A stretch of 23,351 nucleotides of DNA from a virus. Positions 12,226-23,081 of this stretch are shown here, piece after piece (positions within the stretch are counted from its first letter, which is position 1; each line of letters starts with the position of its first letter). Under the pieces are notes generated by a model that saw nothing but the letters and a program-made list of their open reading frames with translations, did not search any database and had not been told where the DNA came from. The DNA lies in IMG/VR virus record IMGVR_UViG_3300006641_000188, positions 1-23,351 of that record, one strand, 5' to 3'. The translations under genes and the position numbers were made by a program.

Positions 12226-12549
12226 GTGGGCGCGGACAAAGGTTTGGTTGAGGGCATGACTAACGCGACGGAGCTGCTCGGCGGCGGGGTTTTTGTGTTG
12301 CTCCACCGCGGGGAAGTTGTGTTTGTGGGGAAGTCGTCTGGCCCGATGCTGGCGAAGATTGCGGCCCTGCGGTCCAGCGACCGGCCGCGGTGGTTGCCGA
12401 AGATTGCCTTCGACGAGATCCGCATTCGCTTCGTCCATCCCGACCGGCTCGCTGATGCCTACTTCGCGCTGATCGCGGAGTATTCCCCGCGCCATAACGC
12501 CCCGACGCCTGCGTCCCTCCCACCCACGATTCTTGCCAGAAGGATCTAA
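12226..12549 (+). CDS. GIY-YIG-like protein, 107 aa
   Basis: GTG start at 12226 with CTGGAG seven bases upstream. After about 20 residues comes GGVFVLLHRGEVVFVGKSS, which matches the GIY-(10)-YIG strand pair in degenerate form (GVF...VFVGKS); then KIAALR, an FDEIRIRFVHPDR strand and ALIAEYSPRHN, the usual helix with Glu and the Asn-containing end of small GIY-YIG proteins. The family has nicking or cleaving endonucleases; phage versions upstream of terminase are usual in position but not understood. The first tyrosine of each motif is replaced, so activity is uncertain. Confidence 0.65.
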   Translation: MGADKGLVEGMTNATELLGGGVFVLLHRGEVVFVGKSSGPMLAKIAALRSSDRPRWLPKIAFDEIRIRFVHPDRLADAYFALIAEYSPRHNAPTPASLPPTILARRI

Positions 12550-12554
12550 CCCCG

Positions 12555-13091
12555 ATGAACATCCAGCGCCGCGCAGACACCCCTTACATCACTGGCGTGC
12601 GGCCGATGGTCAAATCCGACATCGAGGCCCTGCGCCAGCCCTCGGCTCGCGTTCGGATTTCCAAGCTCCGCGACTCCCACCACATCATGGCGCGGCTGTT
12701 CGTAACCGGCGCAACCAATGAAGAAGTCGCGCAGGAGACCGGCTACTCCATCGCCCGCGTTAGCGTCCTTCGCAATTCCCCGGCCATGGTCGAACTCGTC
12801 GAGCGCTACCGTGGCGATGACCACAACGAATGGCGCCGGCACCGCGACGCAACCTACGAGGCCATGCATCGCAACCGCCTCAAATCCCTTGCCATGCTCG
12901 AAGACATCCTCGACAACGAGGAGGAACCGCCGCGGCCTGAGTTCGTCCTCAAGGTCTTCGATTCCATGGCCGACCGCACCGAATACCACCGCAAGACCAC
13001 GAAGGAAAACATCAATGTCAACTTCGCGGCCAAACTCGAAGCGGCGTTCGAACGATCCAAAACCGTCCGTTACATCGACCACGAAGGCTAA
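12555..13091 (+). CDS. Probable terminase small subunit
   Basis: 178 residues. ATG at 12555, with AAGGATCTAACCCCG before it. Residues about 35-80 contain a homeodomain-like HTH: SHHIMARLFVTGATNEEVAQ, ETGYSIARVSVLRNSPAMV; then a long helical region EWRRHRDATYEAMHRNRLKS, and C-terminal part with KVFDSMADRTEYHRKTTKE. The HTH ('IA.L...G.T..E.A..TG.S...VS...N.P') plus helical core is typical of phage TerS, which binds the packaging site and recruits TerL. Here TerL follows only after four other genes. Family assignment rests on motif layout and synteny. Confidence 0.7.
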   Translation: MNIQRRADTPYITGVRPMVKSDIEALRQPSARVRISKLRDSHHIMARLFVTGATNEEVAQETGYSIARVSVLRNSPAMVELVERYRGDDHNEWRRHRDATYEAMHRNRLKSLAMLEDILDNEEEPPRPEFVLKVFDSMADRTEYHRKTTKENINVNFAAKLEAAFERSKTVRYIDHEG

Positions 13092-13271: not shown

Positions 13272-13811
13272 ATGCGTCGAATAGTCCTTGCCTTTGCCCT
13301 GATCCTCGCGGCGCCGCCGGCCTTCGCCCAGCAAGTCATGGGCGGCCTTGGTGCGCCCGCAAGTTCCACCGGCCGCGAGGGGCAGTTCTTCCTCAACGCC
13401 AATAACGGCGCGATCTACGGCCCGAAGACCGGCGGGACTTGGGGCTCCCCAGCCACTACCTTCGCCACATGGCTCGCGGCCCAGACTTCCTTCACCGTCC
13501 CGACCAACCTTTCCGTCGCGGCGAATGTCCCGGCCGCGTCAACCTGCGGAACCTCCCCCGCCGTCACTGCCGGTTCCTCCTCCAATGCCGGCCAGTTCAC
13601 CCTCGGCACCGGCACTCCCACCGCCTGCACCATCACCTTTGCCACGGCCTTCTCCACCGCGGCATTTTGCACTGTGACCCCAGCCTCTGCTGGAGGCGCG
13701 GCAATCTCTGGCGGCTATTACCTCTCCGCCCAGTCCAAAACCGCATTCACCCTCACCATCGGCACAGGGACAGATTCTCTTGTGTTCAACTACACCTGCA
13801 TAGGAAACTGA
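13272..13811 (+). CDS. Exported phage structural-type protein (tail-fibre C-terminal-like), 179 aa
   Basis: SD CTGGAG precedes the ATG at 13272. Residues 1-20 form a Sec signal peptide: two Arg, a hydrophobic core (IVLAFALILAAP) and a cleavage site AFA|QQ. Mature part has a short fibre-like module REGQFFLNANNGAIYGPKTG, then a domain with four cysteines (STCGTSPAVTAGSS, TACTITFATAF, AAFCTVTPAS, FNYTCIGN) typical of the C-terminal domain of many phage tail fibres. Possibly disulphide-bonded in the periplasm. A virion fibre with a signal peptide is unusual, hence possibly an exported receptor-masking or surface protein. Confidence 0.65.
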   Translation: MRRIVLAFALILAAPPAFAQQVMGGLGAPASSTGREGQFFLNANNGAIYGPKTGGTWGSPATTFATWLAAQTSFTVPTNLSVAANVPAASTCGTSPAVTAGSSSNAGQFTLGTGTPTACTITFATAFSTAAFCTVTPASAGGAAISGGYYLSAQSKTAFTLTIGTGTDSLVFNYTCIGN

Positions 13812-13814
13812 TCC

Positions 13815-14348
13815 ATGCGCCGCGTAGCTCTCGCCCTTGCCTTTGCCCTTGCCGCTTCTCCCGCTTGGGCCGGCTATACCCTCACCCTCCCATCGACCAC
13901 CACCGCCTATACCGCCGGGCAGCTCATGGCCAACTCCGCGACTGGCGCATCGGTTGTGGTCCCAAGCTTCTCTCTCCAGTCCCAATACGCAACCGAAGTC
14001 GTGATCTCTCGCGGCGACATTTCCATCAACGACACAACCGCCGCGTCGTGGAACGCCAAGACCATCACCATCGACCTATGGACGGCGGCCCCAACCTTCG
14101 CCAATGGTGACCGTTCCACCTTCTCCCCCGCCACGGGCACCGCGTCCCACATTGGCTCCCTCACCTGCACCATGGGCTCCATCTACGGCGACGGTGTTTG
14201 GGGCGAATGCATCGTCGCTTATGGCAACTTCATCACCGTTCAGGTTTCCTCCGCCACCCAGATCTACTGGACCGCGACGGCCACCTCCGGCTCAGGCACC
14301 ACCGGCGCATCTAAAGTCGTCACCTTCTACCCGGAGACGCTCCATTGA
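13815..14348 (+). CDS. Exported phage protein of structural type, 177 aa
   Basis: ATG at 13815, three bases after the previous stop. Signal peptide at 1-19 (MRRVALALAFALAASPAWA, cleavage AWA|G). The mature part begins GYTLTLPSTTTAYTAGQL and continues with SVVVPSFSLQSQYATEVV, WNAKTITIDLWTAAPTFANG and a C-terminal FITVQVSSATQIYWTATA: a beta-rich domain of the 'YTAGQL.ANSAT...VVVP.....G.......L.TND..T.W....I..DLW.AAPTF.NGD' type found in phage proteins near the head module. Likely a beta-sandwich decoration or tail protein. The family function is not known to me. Confidence 0.6.
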   Translation: MRRVALALAFALAASPAWAGYTLTLPSTTTAYTAGQLMANSATGASVVVPSFSLQSQYATEVVISRGDISINDTTAASWNAKTITIDLWTAAPTFANGDRSTFSPATGTASHIGSLTCTMGSIYGDGVWGECIVAYGNFITVQVSSATQIYWTATATSGSGTTGASKVVTFYPETLH

Positions 14349-16114
14349 TCCGGCGCAACTTCCTCGTCGCGCTCTTTGCGCTGATCGCATCCGCGGCATT
14401 AGCGCTGTCGCCGTTGCAGCGCCGTGTGGTTATTGGCGGCGGCATTCTCCCCGCGTATCAGTGGTTCGCGGCGTCGGGTTTGCTTCCGTCCTGGCTGAGC
14501 CCCTCGCGCACCAGCAACGCGACGATGGTCGATAGCGCGGGTTATCTGACCTATGCGCCGAATAATCTGCTGACGTATTCGAATACGTTTAGCAATGCAA
14601 GTTGGAATCGAACGGGCGTTACAAGTGTTGTCCAAGATGCAGTTTATTATAACGGGACAACGACCGCGTGGACGATAACGCTTGACTCATTAAGCAGTCT
14701 TCATCGGCTATACGAAGGACTGGCTTCCGGCCCAAACAGAGGACTTTATATTGACGCAAAAGCTGGGTCGATCGGATTTGTTTATCTTGCATCTATGGCT
14801 GGAAGCGTTGACGGCGCTGTTTTTAATCTGAATAGCGGAGTTGTATCCTCTACGTATGGTGGTGCGACTGCAACTATAACTTCACTCGGGAACGGTTGGT
14901 ATAGGTGCTTCGTTAACACGAAGCAAACAGTAGGAAGTTTCTCGCAAGTACTCTTTGGCGACACGGATTCTAATGCACGCAACGGGTGGCTGTCTGCGGG
15001 ACAGACAATCCTTATTGCAAACGGAGTAAGCGCCGCACTAACATACGAAACCACCCCCCGCTCCGGCGACCAGGTCATCACCACCTCCGCCGCCTACTAC
15101 GGCCCCCGCATCGACTATTCGACGGGCAGCGCCGGGCTGCTGATTGAGGAGGGCCGGACGAACCTCGCGACGTATTCCAACGATACGAGCCAAAAGCCGC
15201 CGTGGGATTATAACGTCAACGGCAATCCCTCTACCGTCACGCAAAATTTCTACACATCTCCGGATGGGACAGTTAACGCAGCAAAGGTCGTAACGACCGG
15301 AACGACAGAGGGAATTTATCATCGGTCGACCACGCTACCGACCGCAAACCAGTATTACACCTTCTCCATTTATCTTTATTCTCCTGACGGCCTCGCCATT
15401 CGGATTGAGGCGGGCGCGTCTGGCGGAACGGCTTGGACGGGGACGCTATTTAAACAAATAGACACGCCGCCTGTTGGCTGGAGCAGGCAATACCTAACTG
15501 TGCAAGCAGCTTCTAGTGTAACTGCTACTTCGATCACTTTAGCAATTAAAGCGCAGGGTCGCGGTGCGGGTTCGACGTTTGGCGTTTATGGTTATCAATA
15601 CGAACTCGGCTCCTTCCCCACCTCCTACATCCCCACAGCCGGTTCCTCCGTCGCCCGCGCGGCGGATGTTGTGTCGATCACGGATGGGCCGCTGGCGGTG
15701 TTGCAGGGGGCGCAGGGAAGCGCGATTGCCGAGACATTCGCTGAGGCTGCTAGTGGGCTTTCTGCTAATGCAACCATCGTTGGCACGTCCTCGACGCAAC
15801 TTATGTATCGGACTGCCGGAGGCAATCAGCTTGCATCTTGGAATGGGTCTGTTTCGCTTACCGACGGCACGACGACATGGACAAATTCCACTCGGTCGGG
15901 CGCTGGGTTTAGTGCTAACGGGCGCTCTCTATCTCTGAACGGTGGAGCAATAACGTCTGACGCTAACTCCGTCATAATGACCGGATCGGCGTATATTGGC
16001 TCGCAAAACGGGTCCAGTAATTTTGATGGGTGGTTCAAGTCTATCGCCTTCTACCGCACCCGCCTGCCCGACGCCGTTCTCCAATCCAAATCCCGCGTAG
16101 GAGCGCCCTATTGA
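14345..16114 (+). CDS. Exported, tail-spike-like protein with two carbohydrate-binding-type modules, 589 aa
   Basis: TTG start at 14345 overlaps the previous stop (TTGA), with GGAG eight bases upstream. N-terminal signal peptide or anchor (RRNFLVALFALIASAALA). Two related jelly-roll-like modules follow: about 75-250 (LTYSNTFSNASWNRTG ... NGWYRCFVNT) and about 265-445 (EEGRTNLATYSNDTSQ ... GYQYELGSFPTSYIPTAG), typical of CBM4/9-like modules in tail spikes and fibres. A last LamG-like beta domain spans about 480-589 (ATIVGTSSTQLMYRT ... DGWFKSIAFYRTRLPDA). The inner parts are AT-richer than the ends, suggesting module exchange. Role: host-surface sugar binding is likely; export is inferred. Confidence 0.6.
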   Translation: MIRRNFLVALFALIASAALALSPLQRRVVIGGGILPAYQWFAASGLLPSWLSPSRTSNATMVDSAGYLTYAPNNLLTYSNTFSNASWNRTGVTSVVQDAVYYNGTTTAWTITLDSLSSLHRLYEGLASGPNRGLYIDAKAGSIGFVYLASMAGSVDGAVFNLNSGVVSSTYGGATATITSLGNGWYRCFVNTKQTVGSFSQVLFGDTDSNARNGWLSAGQTILIANGVSAALTYETTPRSGDQVITTSAAYYGPRIDYSTGSAGLLIEEGRTNLATYSNDTSQKPPWDYNVNGNPSTVTQNFYTSPDGTVNAAKVVTTGTTEGIYHRSTTLPTANQYYTFSIYLYSPDGLAIRIEAGASGGTAWTGTLFKQIDTPPVGWSRQYLTVQAASSVTATSITLAIKAQGRGAGSTFGVYGYQYELGSFPTSYIPTAGSSVARAADVVSITDGPLAVLQGAQGSAIAETFAEAASGLSANATIVGTSSTQLMYRTAGGNQLASWNGSVSLTDGTTTWTNSTRSGAGFSANGRSLSLNGGAITSDANSVIMTGSAYIGSQNGSSNFDGWFKSIAFYRTRLPDAVLQSKSRVGAPY

Positions 16115-16599
16115 TGTTGCGCCTCGCCCTCGCCCTCGCCCTCCTCGCCACGCCAGCCGCGGCTACGGAGATTATCGCTAACGCTTCCTCGGTCGACGTG
16201 TTCGCACAGGCCGCGCAGTCCACCGGCTTCATCGTTCCCGATGGCAAAGGCGGCGGCTCGATCAAGACCACCGGAGAGCTTGCCAATCAAAAAGGCGGCA
16301 GTTGGTTCTTCAACTACGTGGATAAGGTCGTCGACGTTCCGGCGGTCTTCGACCCGAAGTCCATGACCGTGACGACCCCGCCCACATTTCTCCCCGGAGT
16401 CTGGGCGCGCGTCCGCATCAACGGCACGCCCGACATTGATTTCGGCAACTTCCTGAAAACCGTCGCGGGCCTCGGCGTCACCATCTACCAGCAGATCCCC
16501 GATCCCAAGGGCGACGCCCCCTGCTGGTCATCCAACGGCACCACCTGCTCCACCTCCCCGACCCAAGACAAACTCAATTCCATCGGGGTGATCCTGTGA
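16114..16599 (+). CDS. Exported unknown phage protein, 161 aa
   Basis: The ATG at 16114 overlaps the stop by one base (TGATG), with AGGAG upstream; a longer frame from 16030 is excluded. Signal peptide 1-17 (MLRLALALALLATPAAA). The mature part begins TEIIANASSVDVFAQAAQST and includes GGSIKTTGELANQKGGSWFF, VWARVRINGTPDIDFGN and a cysteine pair CWSSNGTTCSTS. Pattern is beta-rich, as in tail or baseplate-associated proteins, but no family is recognised. Same exported design as its three neighbours. Its stop overlaps the GTG of the large terminase. Confidence 0.55.
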   Translation: MLRLALALALLATPAAATEIIANASSVDVFAQAAQSTGFIVPDGKGGGSIKTTGELANQKGGSWFFNYVDKVVDVPAVFDPKSMTVTTPPTFLPGVWARVRINGTPDIDFGNFLKTVAGLGVTIYQQIPDPKGDAPCWSSNGTTCSTSPTQDKLNSIGVIL

Positions 16600-18101
16600 C
16601 CCTCGACCTGTTCTCTTGGCTGGCCTCGGTCCGCGGCGATCCCTACGCCTTCGTCATGGGCGCGTTCCCATGGCGCGAGCCGGGCACTGTCCTCGCCGAT
16701 TCCGATGGCCCCGAGGACTGGGCGCGCGACCTCATGTTCCGCGTGCGCGACGGGATCATCGACACCAACACCGCGATCCAAGAGGCCGTCGCATCCGGCC
16801 ACGGCATCGCCAAATCCGCGACTGTCGCCCATCTCATCCTATGGGCCTTTTGCACCGCGCCCGACACTCGCGGCGTCATCACTGCCAACACCGAGACCCA
16901 GCTCAAAACCAAAACCTGGGCCGAACTCGGCAAGTGGTTCAACCTCTCCTTCTTCGCCCGCGAGCATTTCAACCTAACCGCCACCGCTCTCCTGTCCAAA
17001 GACCCCGACCGCGAGCGGACCTGGCGCATCGACATGATCCCGTGGTCCGAGAAAAACCCCGCGGCTTTCGCGGGCCTCCACAACAAAGGCAAACGCCTGC
17101 TCCTCGTCTTCGACGAAGCCTCCGAAATCCCCGACATCATCTGGGAAACCGCCGAGGGAGCGCTCACCGATGCCGACACAGAAATCCTTTGGTTCGCCTT
17201 CGGAAACCCCACCAGAAACTCAGGAAGATTTCGTGAGTGTTTCCCTGGAGGCAAGTTTGAACGTCAATGGCATCATCTTCAAATTGACTCCCGCACAGTT
17301 CGAATCACTAACAAGCGCCGGCTGCAGAATTGGATCGACGCGTATGGTCTCGACTCGGACTTTGTCCGCGTTCGTGTCCTTGGGCAGTTCCCGCGCAAAG
17401 GCCTGATGGAATTCTTCTCGGCCGCCGAGATCGACGAGGCAATGTCCCGCGAGGTCCATGTCGACCGCTACGACCCGCTGGCCTGCGGCGTTGACGTGGC
17501 CCGCTACGGCATGAACAACTCCGTCCTGTTCTTCCGCAAAGGCCGCGATGGCCGCACCATCGATCGCCAGAAGTTCCACGGCCTTTCCACCGTCGAACTC
17601 GCGGATAAGATAGTCCTCGCCCAAACCTCCCTCCGCCCCGACGGCATCATGATCGACGGCGGTGGTGTCGGCGGCGGTGTGGTCGACCAAGTCCGCAATC
17701 GCCGGCTCCATTGCTACGAGGTCCAATTCGGCGGCAAGGATGTAATCTACAACACCACCTGGGGCAACACCGGCGAACGCTACGCCAACAACCGCGCGGC
17801 TATGTATGGCGCATGCCGGTCGTGGCTGAAAACCGGCGCACTCCCGCTGGACCCCGAACTCAAACGCCAGATGCTGGCCATCCGCTACACCTTCAACAAC
17901 CGCGACGAGATCATCCTCGAGCGCAAAGAAGATCTCGTCGATGAAGATGGCTCCGGCATTCCCCTCGACGATCTCGATGCGTTGGTCTTGACTTTCGCCC
18001 ATCCGCTAGTTCCTAATCGCAATGCAGGTGGCGAATTTCCGCACGAGCCGGAGGTAATCTCCGAATACGATCCCTACGCTCCGGAAAGGATGTTGGTTTG
18101 A
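16596..18101 (+). CDS. Terminase large subunit (packaging ATPase-nuclease)
   Basis: 501 residues, GTG start overlapping the previous stop (GTGA). ATPase: Walker A ASGHGIAKSA (66-75), Walker B LLLVFDEAS (168-176), motif III-like FAFGNPTRNSG (200-210). RNase H-like nuclease: GVDVARYG (298-305), IMIDGGGVGGGVVD (351-364) and LDDLDALVLTFAHP with Asp461. These are the family's signatures for ATP-driven DNA packaging and genome cutting at the portal. The Walker A has Ala in GIAKS where Gly is usual. It is followed by portal and capsid genes, as expected. Confidence 0.93.
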   Translation: MTLDLFSWLASVRGDPYAFVMGAFPWREPGTVLADSDGPEDWARDLMFRVRDGIIDTNTAIQEAVASGHGIAKSATVAHLILWAFCTAPDTRGVITANTETQLKTKTWAELGKWFNLSFFAREHFNLTATALLSKDPDRERTWRIDMIPWSEKNPAAFAGLHNKGKRLLLVFDEASEIPDIIWETAEGALTDADTEILWFAFGNPTRNSGRFRECFPGGKFERQWHHLQIDSRTVRITNKRRLQNWIDAYGLDSDFVRVRVLGQFPRKGLMEFFSAAEIDEAMSREVHVDRYDPLACGVDVARYGMNNSVLFFRKGRDGRTIDRQKFHGLSTVELADKIVLAQTSLRPDGIMIDGGGVGGGVVDQVRNRRLHCYEVQFGGKDVIYNTTWGNTGERYANNRAAMYGACRSWLKTGALPLDPELKRQMLAIRYTFNNRDEIILERKEDLVDEDGSGIPLDDLDALVLTFAHPLVPNRNAGGEFPHEPEVISEYDPYAPERMLV

Positions 18102-18544: not shown

Positions 18545-18721
18545 ATGCCCGTCGTTCCCTTCTCCCCCAAACCCGCGGCCTCCGCCCAGTCCCCGCCGCC
18601 GCCAGACCCAATCTACCTTTCTGTCGCAGCGGCCATGATCCAAAAAGAACGTAGCACCGAGAAACCCAATGCCCAACCAGCCCCTCTCCCCGCAGGACCT
18701 CGCGCTACGCCGCTACGTTGA
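18545..18721 (+). CDS. Small pre-portal phage protein, 58 aa
   Basis: ATG at 18545, four bases after the previous stop, with AGGA ten bases upstream. Begins MPVVPFSPKPAASAQSPPPP, then DPIYLSVAAAMIQKERS, and ends proline-rich. The 'DP.YL..AAA.M..E' segment recalls small phage proteins found just before the portal. It overlaps the portal gene by 53 bp in another frame. It is short, but the motif and position support it. Confidence 0.5.
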   Translation: MPVVPFSPKPAASAQSPPPPDPIYLSVAAAMIQKERSTEKPNAQPAPLPAGPRATPLR

Positions 18722-20399
18722 AGGCCGGCTCATCGCCCTTCGCGTGAACCGCTATTCTTGGTGGACCCACTGGCGCGAGCTCGCGGACTACTTCCTCCCG
18801 CGTCGCTACAAATGGCTCATCACCCCAAACCAGATGGGCCGCGGTTCCCCCATCAACCAACACATCCTCGACTCCTCTGGCTGCATCTTCGCACGTAACC
18901 TCGCCTCAGGTTTGGTAAGCGGCAAATCCTCCCCCACTTCCCTCTGGTTCCGGCTCCGCGTCGGCTACCACGACTCCACCACGACTTCCCCAATCTCCCT
19001 CTGGCTTGCCGAAGTCGAACGCATCCTCTACCTCATCTTCTCCGAGTCCAACTTCTACAATTCCATCGCCACCTTCTACTACGACCTCGTCGTCTTCGGC
19101 ACAGCCTCCATGCTGATTTACGAAGATTTCGACACCGTCATCAACTGCATCAACCCGGCCCTCGGCGAATACTACATCGACATCGACGGCAAATACCGCC
19201 CCACCGTCTTCTACCGCGAATTCACCATGACCGTCGACGCATGCGTCAAGGAATTCGGGATCGAAAACGTCTCCGCCCCTATTCGCAAACTCTATGAAGA
19301 CCCCTCCGGCGCTAACCTCACCCGCGAACTGATCGTCGCCCACTCCATCGAACCTAACACCGATGGCCGCGCCAAGACCTTCGGCATCCCCGAACGCTTC
19401 GCCTTCCGTGAATGCTACTGGGAATGGGGCGGTTCCACCTCTCCCCAAGGCGGTGCTTCCGCCCCTCCCGGCTTCCTTCGCAAGGGCGGCTACCATGAGC
19501 AGGTTGCGATCACTGGCCGCTGGGATCTGGTTTCGAACGATCCTTACGGTCGCTCTCCTGGCATGGACGGTCTCCCTGATCAAAAACAGTTACAGCTCGA
19601 ACAGCGCCGCAAGGCCCAAGCCATCGACAAGATGGTCAATCCGCCGCTTGTTGCGGATATGCAGCTCAAAAACCAACCCGCCAACCTAACCCCCGGCGGT
19701 ATCACCTTCGTCTCCGGATACGCCGCTTCCGGCAAGCCCGGCTTCGCCTCCGTCTACGACACCCGCTTCCCGGTCCAAGACATCGTCAACGACCTCACCG
19801 AAGTCCGCACCCGCCTTTCCCAAACCTTCTTCAACGATGTCCTCCGCGTGGCAAGTCAGTATGAGACCCGCTCCAACGTCACCGCCGTCGAATGGGACCT
19901 CCGCAAATCCGAATCCCTCGTTATGCTTGGCCCTGCCCTTGAACGCATCGACAATGAAGTCCTGCGCCCTGTCCTCACCCGCGTCTTCGCCATTGCCCTC
20001 CGCGCCGGAATCATCCCGCCTGCTCCGCCGGAGATCCAAGGCCACATGATGACCATCGACTTCGTCTCGATGCTCGCACAGGCCCAGCAAGCCACCCGCG
20101 CGGCTTCTATCGAGCGCGTCCTTTCCCTCGCCGGTAACATCGTCGGCGTCAAACCTGAGGCCATGGACAACATCGACATCGACTATTCCCTTGACAAATA
20201 CTCCAGCCTACTGAACAATGATCCTAAGATGATCAGAAGTCCTGAGGCAGTCGAAGCAATCCGTCAGCAGCGCGCGCAAGCCGAAGCCGCGGCGCAGCAA
20301 GCCCAGATCGCGCAGCAACTTTCCGCCGGCGCCAAGAACCTTGCAGGCGCTGACCTCGGCGGCGTCAACGCACTCCAAGCCATGGTAGGCGAGGGATGA
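18669..20399 (+). CDS. Head-tail connector (portal) protein, T7 gp8-like
   Basis: 576 residues, matching the Head-tail_con family of podoviruses in length and pattern: N-terminal VEGRLIALRVNRYSWWTHWR ELADYFLP, then DSSGCIFARNLASGLVSGKS-SPTSLWFRL, and FYNSIATFYYDLVVFGTASM; the middle has DPYGRSPGMDGLPDQKQLQ and KAQAIDKMVNPPLVADM, and the C-terminal helical part with EVRTRLSQTFFNDVLRV and a Gln/Ala-rich end. It forms the dodecameric ring through which DNA is packed and ejected. 'PYGRSPGMDGLPD' is a family signature. Start at 18669 follows within the small pre-portal gene; no strong SD seen. Confidence 0.93.
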   Translation: MPNQPLSPQDLALRRYVEGRLIALRVNRYSWWTHWRELADYFLPRRYKWLITPNQMGRGSPINQHILDSSGCIFARNLASGLVSGKSSPTSLWFRLRVGYHDSTTTSPISLWLAEVERILYLIFSESNFYNSIATFYYDLVVFGTASMLIYEDFDTVINCINPALGEYYIDIDGKYRPTVFYREFTMTVDACVKEFGIENVSAPIRKLYEDPSGANLTRELIVAHSIEPNTDGRAKTFGIPERFAFRECYWEWGGSTSPQGGASAPPGFLRKGGYHEQVAITGRWDLVSNDPYGRSPGMDGLPDQKQLQLEQRRKAQAIDKMVNPPLVADMQLKNQPANLTPGGITFVSGYAASGKPGFASVYDTRFPVQDIVNDLTEVRTRLSQTFFNDVLRVASQYETRSNVTAVEWDLRKSESLVMLGPALERIDNEVLRPVLTRVFAIALRAGIIPPAPPEIQGHMMTIDFVSMLAQAQQATRAASIERVLSLAGNIVGVKPEAMDNIDIDYSLDKYSSLLNNDPKMIRSPEAVEAIRQQRAQAEAAAQQAQIAQQLSAGAKNLAGADLGGVNALQAMVGEG

Positions 20400-20587: not shown

Positions 20588-20972
20588 TGCAGCCGAACGC
20601 AAAAACATCCGCAAGTTCGAGAAGCTCGCGGCTGAAGCTGACCAAGCTCGGATCAACTTCATCGTCGCGGCTATGTCCACCGCCCAAGGCCGCACCTACT
20701 TCCATGGCATCCTCTCCATTTGCAATATCTTCGACGGATCGTTCTCTTCCGATCCTCTTCTCGAAGCCTTCACCAAAGGCCAACGCAACATCGGCCTTTT
20801 AATCTACAACGACATCGTCACCCACTGCCCCGATTTCTTCGTGACGATGATGCGAGAAGCCAGCATAAAGGACCTAGCCAATGACCGACGAATCGATCCC
20901 CTCCCCGGCGACGACGGAAGCGCCGATGGCGAACTCTCCGGAGGCGAGGACGACAACTGGGGAAATCATTGA
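20580..20972 (+). CDS. Bbp19-like phage head protein, 130 aa
   Basis: Starts at 20580 (MRNAAERKNIRKFEKLAAEA). The core GRTYFHGILSICNIFDGSF (about 37-55), then GQRNIGLLIYNDIV and a proline-region THCPDFFVTMMREA correspond to the Bbp19 family pattern ('GR.f...lL..cgvf...f........EGrRnvGl.L') named after Bordetella phage BPP-1. The last 30 residues are acidic and overlap the scaffold gene by 92 bp. Its place between portal and scaffold suggests a role in head morphogenesis; the molecular function is not established. Confidence 0.7.
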   Translation: MRNAAERKNIRKFEKLAAEADQARINFIVAAMSTAQGRTYFHGILSICNIFDGSFSSDPLLEAFTKGQRNIGLLIYNDIVTHCPDFFVTMMREASIKDLANDRRIDPLPGDDGSADGELSGGEDDNWGNH

Positions 20973-21525
20973 TCAAGCCGCGCCACCGCCGGCCGAAACC
21001 ACCACGCCTGAATCCACTGGCGCCCCCGAGACCTACGCCGACTTCAAGCTCCCCGAGGGCGCGACACTCGACTCCACCGTTCTCGCCGAGGCGGCCCCGA
21101 TCTTCAAAGAGCTGAACCTCTCGCAGGACCAAGCCCAGAAGCTCGTCGACATCTACACCAAAAACTCCGCGGCGTCGCTTGAATCCGCGACCAAGGCTGT
21201 GACCAAGATGCGCACGGATTGGATCGACGCGGCCCGTGCTGACAAGGACATCGGTTCCGTCCTCGACACCAAGGTGCTCCCCTCGATTTCCAAAGCCATC
21301 GCCTCTCTCCCCGAAGCCGATGCTTCCGCCTTCCGCGAAGCCATGAACTTCACCGGCGCTGGCGACCATCCCGCCGTGATTAAGGCCCTCTATCACTTCG
21401 CACAGAAGGTGAACGAAGGCACCCACGTCACCGGCGGCAACCCCTCGCCTCATGGCCAGTCCGCGAAGGGGGCATCCTCCCGCCCCACCCTCGCAACTGC
21501 CATGTATCCGAACCTCCCTCAATGA
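20881..21525 (+). CDS. Capsid assembly scaffolding-type protein, 214 aa
   Basis: ATG at 20881 with AAGGA eight bases upstream. The first 50 residues are Thr/Pro/Glu-rich and disordered. A conserved part follows: TYADFKLPEGATLDSTVLAE, FKELNLSQDQAQKLVDIYTK, then helices with TDWIDAARADKD and ISKAIASLPEADASAF. This layout is the family pattern of phage scaffolding proteins before the major capsid gene. It is cut or displaced during maturation in known systems. It ends with AMYPNLPQ. Function by family and synteny. Confidence 0.8.
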   Translation: MTDESIPSPATTEAPMANSPEARTTTGEIIDQAAPPPAETTTPESTGAPETYADFKLPEGATLDSTVLAEAAPIFKELNLSQDQAQKLVDIYTKNSAASLESATKAVTKMRTDWIDAARADKDIGSVLDTKVLPSISKAIASLPEADASAFREAMNFTGAGDHPAVIKALYHFAQKVNEGTHVTGGNPSPHGQSAKGASSRPTLATAMYPNLPQ

Positions 21526-21533
21526 GTTAATTC

Positions 21534-22034
21534 ATGCTAACGCAGGACCTACTCATCGAAATGTTCGACTACGACCCCGAGACTGGTTGGTTTACCAATC
21601 GTTATTCTCGTGGTCGTGCTGCTTCTGGCTCTCGTGCTGGAGCAGAAACTGGCCATGGTTATCGTCGCATAATCATCGGCTATAACAAGTATTACGAACA
21701 TCATCTTGCTTGGCTTTATGTCTACGGAGTCTGGCCAGGTGAACTCGATCATGCAGATGGCAATGGTTGCAACAATCGCATTGCCAATCTTCGTGAATGT
21801 TCTCGGACTGAGAACAAATTCAATGCCCGAACGACAACTGGTCAAGCCGGCCTCTCTGGGGCGTATCTGGATCGTAGAAACTCTCAGTGGTATTCGAAGA
21901 TCCAAGTCGGTGGTCAGCAGATCTTTTTGGGTAATTTTGATTCCCCAGAAAAAGCTCACGAAGCTTATTTAGAGGCTCGTGAAATAATCGCTGGGGATTT
22001 CGCGTATCACAAACGCCCGCTGAAAAGGATCTAG
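21534..22034 (+). CDS. HNH homing endonuclease with AP2-like DNA-binding domain
   Basis: 166 residues. HNH core: HHLAWLYVYGVWPGELDH (56-73), GNGCNNRIANLREC (76-89); these hold the His, the DH pair and the Asn-His-Asn-type ligands of HNH_3. C-terminal AP2-like domain: LSGAYLDRRNSQWYSKIQ, GGQQIFLGNFDSPEKAHEAY. Such genes are selfish homing endonucleases. It is AT-richer than its neighbours and placed exactly between scaffold and capsid genes, which are normally adjacent. No good SD is seen. The last codons (AAAAGGATC) form the SD of the capsid gene. Confidence 0.9.
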   Translation: MLTQDLLIEMFDYDPETGWFTNRYSRGRAASGSRAGAETGHGYRRIIIGYNKYYEHHLAWLYVYGVWPGELDHADGNGCNNRIANLRECSRTENKFNARTTTGQAGLSGAYLDRRNSQWYSKIQVGGQQIFLGNFDSPEKAHEAYLEAREIIAGDFAYHKRPLKRI

Positions 22035-22037
22035 AAA

Positions 22038-23081
22038 ATGGCTACCATTGGTAGTGTCGCACTCACGTATAGTGATTGGGCCAAGAGGATGGATGATGGC
22101 TACAGAGTGGCCTCAATCATCGAACTCCTCTCCCAGACCAACGAGATCCTCGACGACATGCTCGTTGTCGAAGGCAACCTCCCAACCGGTCATAAGACCA
22201 CCATCCGCACCGGCCTCCCGCAGGCCACGTGGCGTCTGCTCAACGCTGGCGTCCCCAACGCGAAGTCCACGACCGCGCAGATCGTCGACACTTGCGGCAA
22301 CCTCGAAACCTACGCGGTCATCGACAAAGACATCGCCGACCTCAACGGCAATACCGCTGAGTTCCGCTTGTCCGAGGTCAAAGCCTTCCTCGAAGGTATG
22401 TCGCAGCAGGTCGCGGCTACCATCATCTACGGCAACCAGTTCACCAACCCTGAGCGTTTCACCGGCTTGGCCCCGCGGTATTCCACCAAGAATACCTCCA
22501 ACGCACAGACCGCGAATAACGTCCTTGACGGCGGTGGCACCTCCTCCACCAACACCTCGATCTGGGGCATCACCTGGGGCAGCGACACCCTCCACGGCAC
22601 CTTCCCCAAGGGCAAAATCACCGGCCTCCAGCATCGCGACATGGGTGAGTGGCCCGTTGCCGATTCCGCCGGCAACACCTACCAGGCCTACCGCGATCAC
22701 TTCAAATGGGAGATCGGCCTCGTCCTCCGCGATTGGCGCTATGCTTTCCGCATCGCCAACATCGACGTCACCCAGCTGACCGGCGTCTCCGCGGCGAACC
22801 TGATCAATCTCCTCGTCCGCGGCCTCTACCGCCTGCCCACCGCCCCCGCTTCCGCGTCCGCGATCCAGACCTCCGACACTCCGGAAGTTCGCGCGAACAT
22901 GGGCCGGGTCGTCCTCTACGCCAACCGCGTGGTTCGCACCTATCTCGACCTTCAGGCCATGAACAAGACCAACGTCCTGCTCCGGCTCGAAGAGTTCGAC
23001 GGCAAGGTCGTCACCACCTTCCGCGGCATTCCGGTGCGCACCGTGGACGCTATACTCAATAATGAGGCCCAGGTCTCTTAA
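22038..23081 (+). CDS. Major capsid protein
   Basis: 347 residues; ATG at 22038 with AAAAGGATC before it. It begins MATIGSVALTYSDWAKRMDD and continues SIIELLSQTNEILDDMLVVE, PTGHKTTIRTGLPQATWRL, KAFLEGMSQQVAATIIYGNQ and ITGLQHRDMGEWPV, ending GKVVTTFRGIPVRTVDAIL. The length, the early helix 'ELL.QTN.IL.DM...EGN....H....RTGLP' and position after scaffold agree with the major capsid protein of BPP-1-type podoviruses. The first 25 codons are AT-richer, adjoining the homing gene. Function by family and context. Confidence 0.88.
   Translation: MATIGSVALTYSDWAKRMDDGYRVASIIELLSQTNEILDDMLVVEGNLPTGHKTTIRTGLPQATWRLLNAGVPNAKSTTAQIVDTCGNLETYAVIDKDIADLNGNTAEFRLSEVKAFLEGMSQQVAATIIYGNQFTNPERFTGLAPRYSTKNTSNAQTANNVLDGGGTSSTNTSIWGITWGSDTLHGTFPKGKITGLQHRDMGEWPVADSAGNTYQAYRDHFKWEIGLVLRDWRYAFRIANIDVTQLTGVSAANLINLLVRGLYRLPTAPASASAIQTSDTPEVRANMGRVVLYANRVVRTYLDLQAMNKTNVLLRLEEFDGKVVTTFRGIPVRTVDAILNNEAQVS

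Follow-up and report, generated by a model that had tools for sequence, protein, structure and literature searches.

Predicted exported fibre genes between the terminase genes of an epsilon15-like podovirus

Gene organization of the terminase interval

The window analyzed here is an entire IMG/VR record of 23,351 bases, the right end of which lies just past the capsid gene. From position 12555 onward it encodes, in order, a putative small terminase (TerS), four open reading frames, the large terminase (TerL), the portal, a protease, an HNH endonuclease, and the capsid protein. The four frames between the terminase genes, all on the plus strand, constitute the cassette considered here. Gene 1 (13272–13811; 179 aa) specifies a predicted exported, fibre-like protein that ends in a four-cysteine C-terminal domain, its signal peptide spanning residues 1–19 (13272–13328). 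Gene 2 (13815–14348; 177 aa) encodes a predicted exported protein with a signal peptide at about residues 1–19 (13815–13871). Gene 3 (14345–16114; 589 aa), whose product is termed P3, starts with TTG and encodes a predicted exported fibre with domains of the RcGTA head-spike type, preceded by a signal peptide at about residues 1–20 (14345–14404). Gene 4 (16114–16599) yields a small predicted exported protein, 161 aa from its ATG, with a signal peptide at about residues 1–17 (16114–16164); a longer frame from a GTG at 16030 is an upstream extension of it. Overlaps of 1–4 nt (TTGA at 14345, TGATG at 16112, GTGA at 16596) link genes 2–4 and terL to one another, and the cassette is therefore part of the late operon. 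Within gene 3, the GC content drops to 0.48–0.50 (14500–15000), compared to 0.60–0.68 in the neighboring genes, which suggests a mosaic or recently acquired body.

The flanking genes identify the phage type. To the left, the putative TerS (12555–13091, plus strand) is assigned by position and size; it is 32–51% identical to the gene preceding TerL or the cassette in relatives and has no diagnostic family match, the best being phrog_645 at an E value of 0.0098. Further upstream and outside the cassette lies a small GIY-YIG-like gene (12226–12549, plus strand) whose homologues precede TerS in several relatives. The window copy has no Pfam match, and the corresponding GIY-YIG-type gene of one relative (L092:5880–6272) matches PF01541 at 2.2e-5. 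To the right, the epsilon15-like TerL (16596–18101, plus strand; phrog_2, 4.7e-38) overlaps gene 4 by 4 nt and is 41–45% identical to epsilon15-type large terminases, specifically 41.6% to that of epsilon15 and 45% to that of phage PfDIW6. The portal or head–tail connector (18669–20399; PF12236, 4.8e-122), the capsid protease/scaffold (20881–21525; phrog_458, 8e-37), and the GP7-type major capsid protein (22038–23081; PF20911, 8.7e-132) follow on the same strand. An HNH endonuclease gene (21534–22034; PF13392, 7.6e-13) sits between the protease and capsid genes, and a similar frame occupies the same position in the related genome G014.

An epsilon15-type TerL, a PF12236 portal, and a PF20911 capsid protein together mark an epsilon15-like podovirus, and the window has all three. 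Salmonella phage epsilon15 (Uetakevirus) carries homologues of the TerL, the PF12236 portal, the protease, and the GP7 capsid protein in the same order. The two phages part ways at the terminase genes, which overlap in epsilon15 and are separated in the window by a 3.5 kb cassette; TerS adjoins TerL in PfDIW6 as well. The remark in the initial annotation that terminase genes are usually adjacent thus holds for both reference phages. The tailspike gene of epsilon15, gp20, is placed after gp17–19, and none of the 19 epsilon15 late genes tested carries a signal peptide, unlike the cassette.

Signal peptides and cysteine parity

All four cassette proteins begin with a positively charged n-region, a hydrophobic core, and an A-x-A site, the predicted anatomy of a Sec substrate cleaved by signal peptidase I. 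The likely cleavage sites in genes 1–4 are AFA↓QQV, AWA↓GYT, ALA↓LSP, and AAA↓TEI, respectively. The run of four consecutive signal-peptide genes at 13272–16599, which the initial annotation had proposed to lie between the small and large terminase, is thereby confirmed, with the small-terminase label standing by position and size only. Signal peptides were called with a home-made scorer (charge, hydrophobic core, A-x-A) and the resulting list was curated by hand. Each of the four genes was called, far above the controls: the scorer was positive in 1.7–2.7% of shuffles of the same proteins, in 0/52 late coding sequences of epsilon15, PfDIW6, and a Manatee Spring podovirus, and in 7/358 conserved packaging or virion genes of the clade, all seven being alternative-start artefacts of TerL or GIY-YIG genes. 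These shuffles and control genes rule out chance hydrophobic N-termini. Phage superinfection-exclusion lipoproteins of the T5 Llp type bear a lipobox with a cysteine at +1. No cysteine occurs at or near the predicted +1 position of any of the four proteins, and in the absence of a lipobox a lipoprotein identity was ruled out.

The same features extend to 62 curated signal-peptide proteins. Position −1 is alanine in 61/62 and position −3 in 45/62, while glutamine occupies +1 in 45/62, or 38/62 if glutamine earns no bonus in the choice of the cut; the scoring rewards alanine at −1 and −3, such that only the glutamine figure is free of that bias. Periplasmic proteins that fold with disulfides are known for even numbers of cysteines. 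The mature cysteine count is even in 45 of the 56 cysteine-containing signal-peptide proteins (p 2.7e-6). Counted by family, with families built otherwise than by single linkage, which over-merged low-complexity fibres, parity is even in 24/32 signal-peptide families (p 0.0035) versus 23/67 families without a signal peptide (Fisher 2e-4). The mature products of genes 1–4 contain 4, 2, 1, and 2 cysteines, gene 3 being the exception to evenness. Cysteines are denser in the signal-peptide proteins than in conserved virion families, but no denser than in all genes lacking a signal peptide. The parity bias probably marks disulfide folding outside the cytoplasm. Because signal-peptide anatomy, a conserved A-x-A↓Q site, and the even-cysteine bias all support export, the cassette proteins are very probably genuine Sec substrates.

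Two cassette sites among relatives

Eighty loci with 62–84% TerL identity were fetched for comparison of the terminase interval. Close relatives keep a cassette between TerS and TerL (site A) with variable content, comprising fibre-size proteins of 360–1246 aa along with small ones. Among the hand-listed site A cassette genes of relatives, 25/25 have a signal-like N-terminus, 23 of them strictly so, and L021 and L030 contribute three further signal-peptide cassette genes once the right start is used. The interval recommended for comparison by the initial annotation is thus a variable cassette that retains its signal peptides, with one clear exception, a 1322-aa protein without a signal peptide in L006 (402–4370). 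TerS adjoins TerL, with no cassette between them, in relatives further removed, L017 and L024 among them. Relatives with adjoining terminase genes instead carry signal-peptide genes between the capsid and tail-tube genes (site B; G002, G005, G006, G009, G010, and G011). At site B, small conserved families (MARWKL..., 120 aa) never have a signal peptide, while the fibre-like and the about 210-aa families do; the trait therefore goes with the protein family. Two unclassified proteins without a signal peptide also reside at site B of G011.

Two side observations concern the content of these sites. In L016 (4317–4877), the TerS–TerL interval additionally contains genes for a GH108 endolysin and for a small membrane protein, and the site therefore also takes up lysis genes. 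A site B gene of G010 (L095:7713–8576) has a Tat-like signal, SRRHLLRG, in place of a Sec signal peptide (Pfam TAT_signal, E 0.0049, below the cutoff), which suggests a possible second export route.

Sequence conservation in the exported fibres is concentrated at the N-terminus. In site B fibres, the signal peptide and about 30 residues are shared (pairwise identity 0.56 over the first 60 columns), after which identity falls to 0.12–0.27. In site A fibres the conserved part extends for about 120 columns (0.47, 0.44), with identity mostly below 0.3 thereafter. A conserved N-terminus on swapped bodies would fit the pattern of virion-anchored fibres, with the difference that the conserved part here follows the predicted signal. 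BLAST searches of the relatives' contigs detected no tailspike of the epsilon15 or PfDIW6 type, and the only fibres recognized in most near-complete clade genomes were ones bearing a signal peptide.

Relationships of the mature proteins

The mature body of gene 3 is, by homology, firmly established as a known phage fibre type. It matches the phrog_5939 tail protein (1.1e-36) and the RcGTA head spike fibre Rcc01080 (6TB9; phmmer 3.2e-9, profile 1.1e-53), and profile searches further detect a domain shared with gp45 of Pseudomonas phage E217 (8ENV), gp46 of phage Pa193 (9B45), and tail fiber gp17 (9OCC), all solved virion-type proteins (1.3e-20 to 1.8e-18). The RcGTA head spike fibre binds capsule, and the N-terminus of Rcc01080 is retained, its residues 2–10 contacting the spike base in the particle (PMC10218006). 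Gene 3 shares the receptor-binding domain homology with Rcc01080 and differs by its predicted cleavable signal peptide, which argues against a retained N-terminal anchor such as that seen in the particle.

The fibre character of gene 1 is likewise supported by its matches. Residues 21–59, directly after the signal peptide, match fibre or tail proteins over about 35–39 residues, and the four-cysteine C-terminal domain is found again in other phages, in proteins of fibre size, several of which bear signal peptides. Gene 2 has one homologue (46%), in a Mu-like phage, where it too bears a signal peptide and is third in a row of four such genes. Gene 4 clusters with the signal-peptide gene L011:6482–6943 and had no match in family searches of the Pfam and PHROG type. 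Other signal-peptide proteins of the clade contain C1q or beta-helix/tailspike domains. AlphaFold models were weak (pLDDT 64 and 54); Foldseek returned no significant match for the gene 1 model and mostly generic beta-sandwiches for that of gene 3, and neither result was given weight. The suggestion that the mature parts resemble fibre, spike, or decoration domains is thus upheld for gene 3 through its RcGTA spike and baseplate or fibre matches and has support for gene 1, without demonstrably extending to genes 2 and 4.

Homologues without hydrophobic N-termini, named in the initial annotation as counterevidence, do occur. P3 bodies lacking a signal peptide are found in ordinary phages (P0007 and about ten viral loci, L195 being a doubtful call), and P0012 is a homologue without a signal peptide of a 118-aa cassette family of relatives; P0004 had no viral homologue by pattern scan. 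Such homologues show the predicted signal to be an add-on to virion-type bodies; they do not show it to be accidental.

Occurrence beyond the clade

Beyond what the initial annotation described, the pattern runs through the clade and reaches a second site and unrelated phages. Fibre-size proteins with a signal peptide and an even cysteine count are found in the podoviruses G013 and G016, in the latter directly upstream of terL, in G018, and in the Mu-like phage G020. In G020 (L213:11100–15272), four consecutive signal-peptide genes follow an ordinary tail fibre gene without one. The isolated Synechococcus phage Yong-M4-211 (L227) encodes two even-cysteine proteins with signal peptides, UPT53193.1 and UPT53194.1, late in its tail module. 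It is a phage of another type whose signal-peptide genes are annotated as hypothetical and are not homologous to those of the window; UPT53193.1 is homologous to the fourth signal-peptide gene of G020. Similar predicted exported fibres are hence present in unrelated phages, this isolate included. Another gene of Yong-M4-211 bears the annotation GcrA. This regulator of the cell cycle is typical of Alphaproteobacteria, and its presence is odd beside the phage's stated cyanobacterial host.

Genomes of Terriglobia encode signal-peptide proteins of ~880–1420 aa that contain the gene 1 C-terminal domain (L234:4477–8328, L235:4768–9030, and L233:5233–7959), with even cysteine counts (10, 26, and 28). 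The protein from L235 shows a pectate-lyase-like fold, and its neighbors are phage-like. The profile of this domain was detected in 5/299 genomes of the class Terriglobia versus 0/385 of Alphaproteobacteria. The closest contig in a genome assembly belongs to a Terriglobia MAG (TerL 63%, major capsid protein 82%), and the best major capsid protein match among the sampled Alphaproteobacteria is 57%.

Fibres, signal peptides, and epsilon15-like phages are each known. A study of rumen phages reported 0–2 signal peptides per phage genome (PMC5723332). The open-access literature searched yielded no precedent for signal peptides on phage fibres and no description of fibre cassettes with export signals; an earlier report in subscription papers is possible.

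Possible fates of the exported fibres

Export signals on fibre genes are unexpected, given that tailed phages are generally held to complete their assembly within the cytoplasm. The explanation we favor, at close to an even prospect, is that the cassette encodes fibre or adhesin modules that are exported by Sec and whose mature forms join virions at lysis. The modules would be made late, from the operon overlapping terL, and carried out by the host Sec pathway, with signal peptidase I cutting after A-x-A. Folding and disulfide formation would follow outside the cytoplasm, and the mature fibres would stay in the periplasm until lysis, when the conserved N-terminus exposed by the cut would attach them to assembled virions. 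The host-recognition parts would so mature outside the cytoplasm. Since tailed phages assemble in the cytoplasm, attachment after lysis needs a further step. Counting against it, P3 has a single cysteine, and fibre-size proteins without a signal peptide occur beside signal-peptide genes in L006 (402–4370) and the Mu-like G020, so that the signal-peptide proteins are not always the only fibre candidates.

For that last reason, a reading in which the exported proteins never join the virion ranks close behind. Their site of action might be the surface of the infected cell or the medium, where they could mask receptors and so block superinfection, or could strip capsule or receptors in the manner of a neuraminidase so that progeny are not trapped on debris. 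We regard this as possible, if rather doubtful. Signal peptides and cysteine parity accord with it, as do the resemblance of some signal-peptide proteins to beta-helix depolymerases and the signal-peptide proteins of Terriglobia genomes that contain the gene 1 C-terminal domain. The four genes that follow an ordinary tail fibre in G020 look additional, and, according to a preprint whose title names a detachable RcGTA tailspike, biofilm is degraded by this tailspike in purified form (PMC13420450). However, no other fibre was recognized in most near-complete clade genomes, N-termini that stay conserved while the bodies diverge accord with anchoring in the virion, and P3 bodies of other phages lack a signal peptide and match virion fibres. 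Of the exported complex or structural module envisaged by the initial annotation, export is supported by signal-peptide anatomy, the A-x-A↓Q site, and even cysteines, and a fibre or spike module by the P3 matches, with host coating and receptor masking as possible alternatives to a place on the virion. Improbable, by comparison, is that the hydrophobic N-termini are membrane-inserting or trimerizing segments of fibres that stay in the cytoplasm. Cytoplasmic assembly of tailed phages and the functioning of homologous bodies without a signal peptide would suit such segments, but neither a signal peptidase I site conserved over unrelated bodies (−1 alanine in 61/62) nor a cysteine parity that differs from that of other genes is expected of a retained anchor. 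Very improbable is that the genes are host-derived adhesin passengers (morons) expressed in the lysogen to alter its surface. The C-terminal domain shared with signal-peptide proteins of Terriglobia genomes, the variable cassette content, and the lower GC inside gene 3 are compatible with morons; a lysogeny passenger is nonetheless disfavored by the overlaps of the genes with one another and with terL, which put them in the late operon, by the repetition of the pattern at two late sites, and by the lack of an integrase recognized in the window or relatives, though no profile search stands behind the latter.

Implications

Extended beyond the window, attachment at lysis would amount to a hitherto unrecognized tailed-phage strategy, put forward tentatively and at somewhat less than even confidence, in which receptor-binding fibres of several unrelated phage lineages are exported by Sec (perhaps also Tat), acquire disulfides in the periplasm, and join the virions assembled in the cytoplasm only once lysis occurs. 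On sequence evidence, fibre genes that repeatedly pair an export signal with the cysteine pattern of exported proteins would point either to such a compartment-split assembly route or to a class of secreted fibres that act at the surface of the host. In either case, the prediction of fibres and receptor-binding proteins in uncultured phages would have to be revised, and an isolated phage would allow a test.
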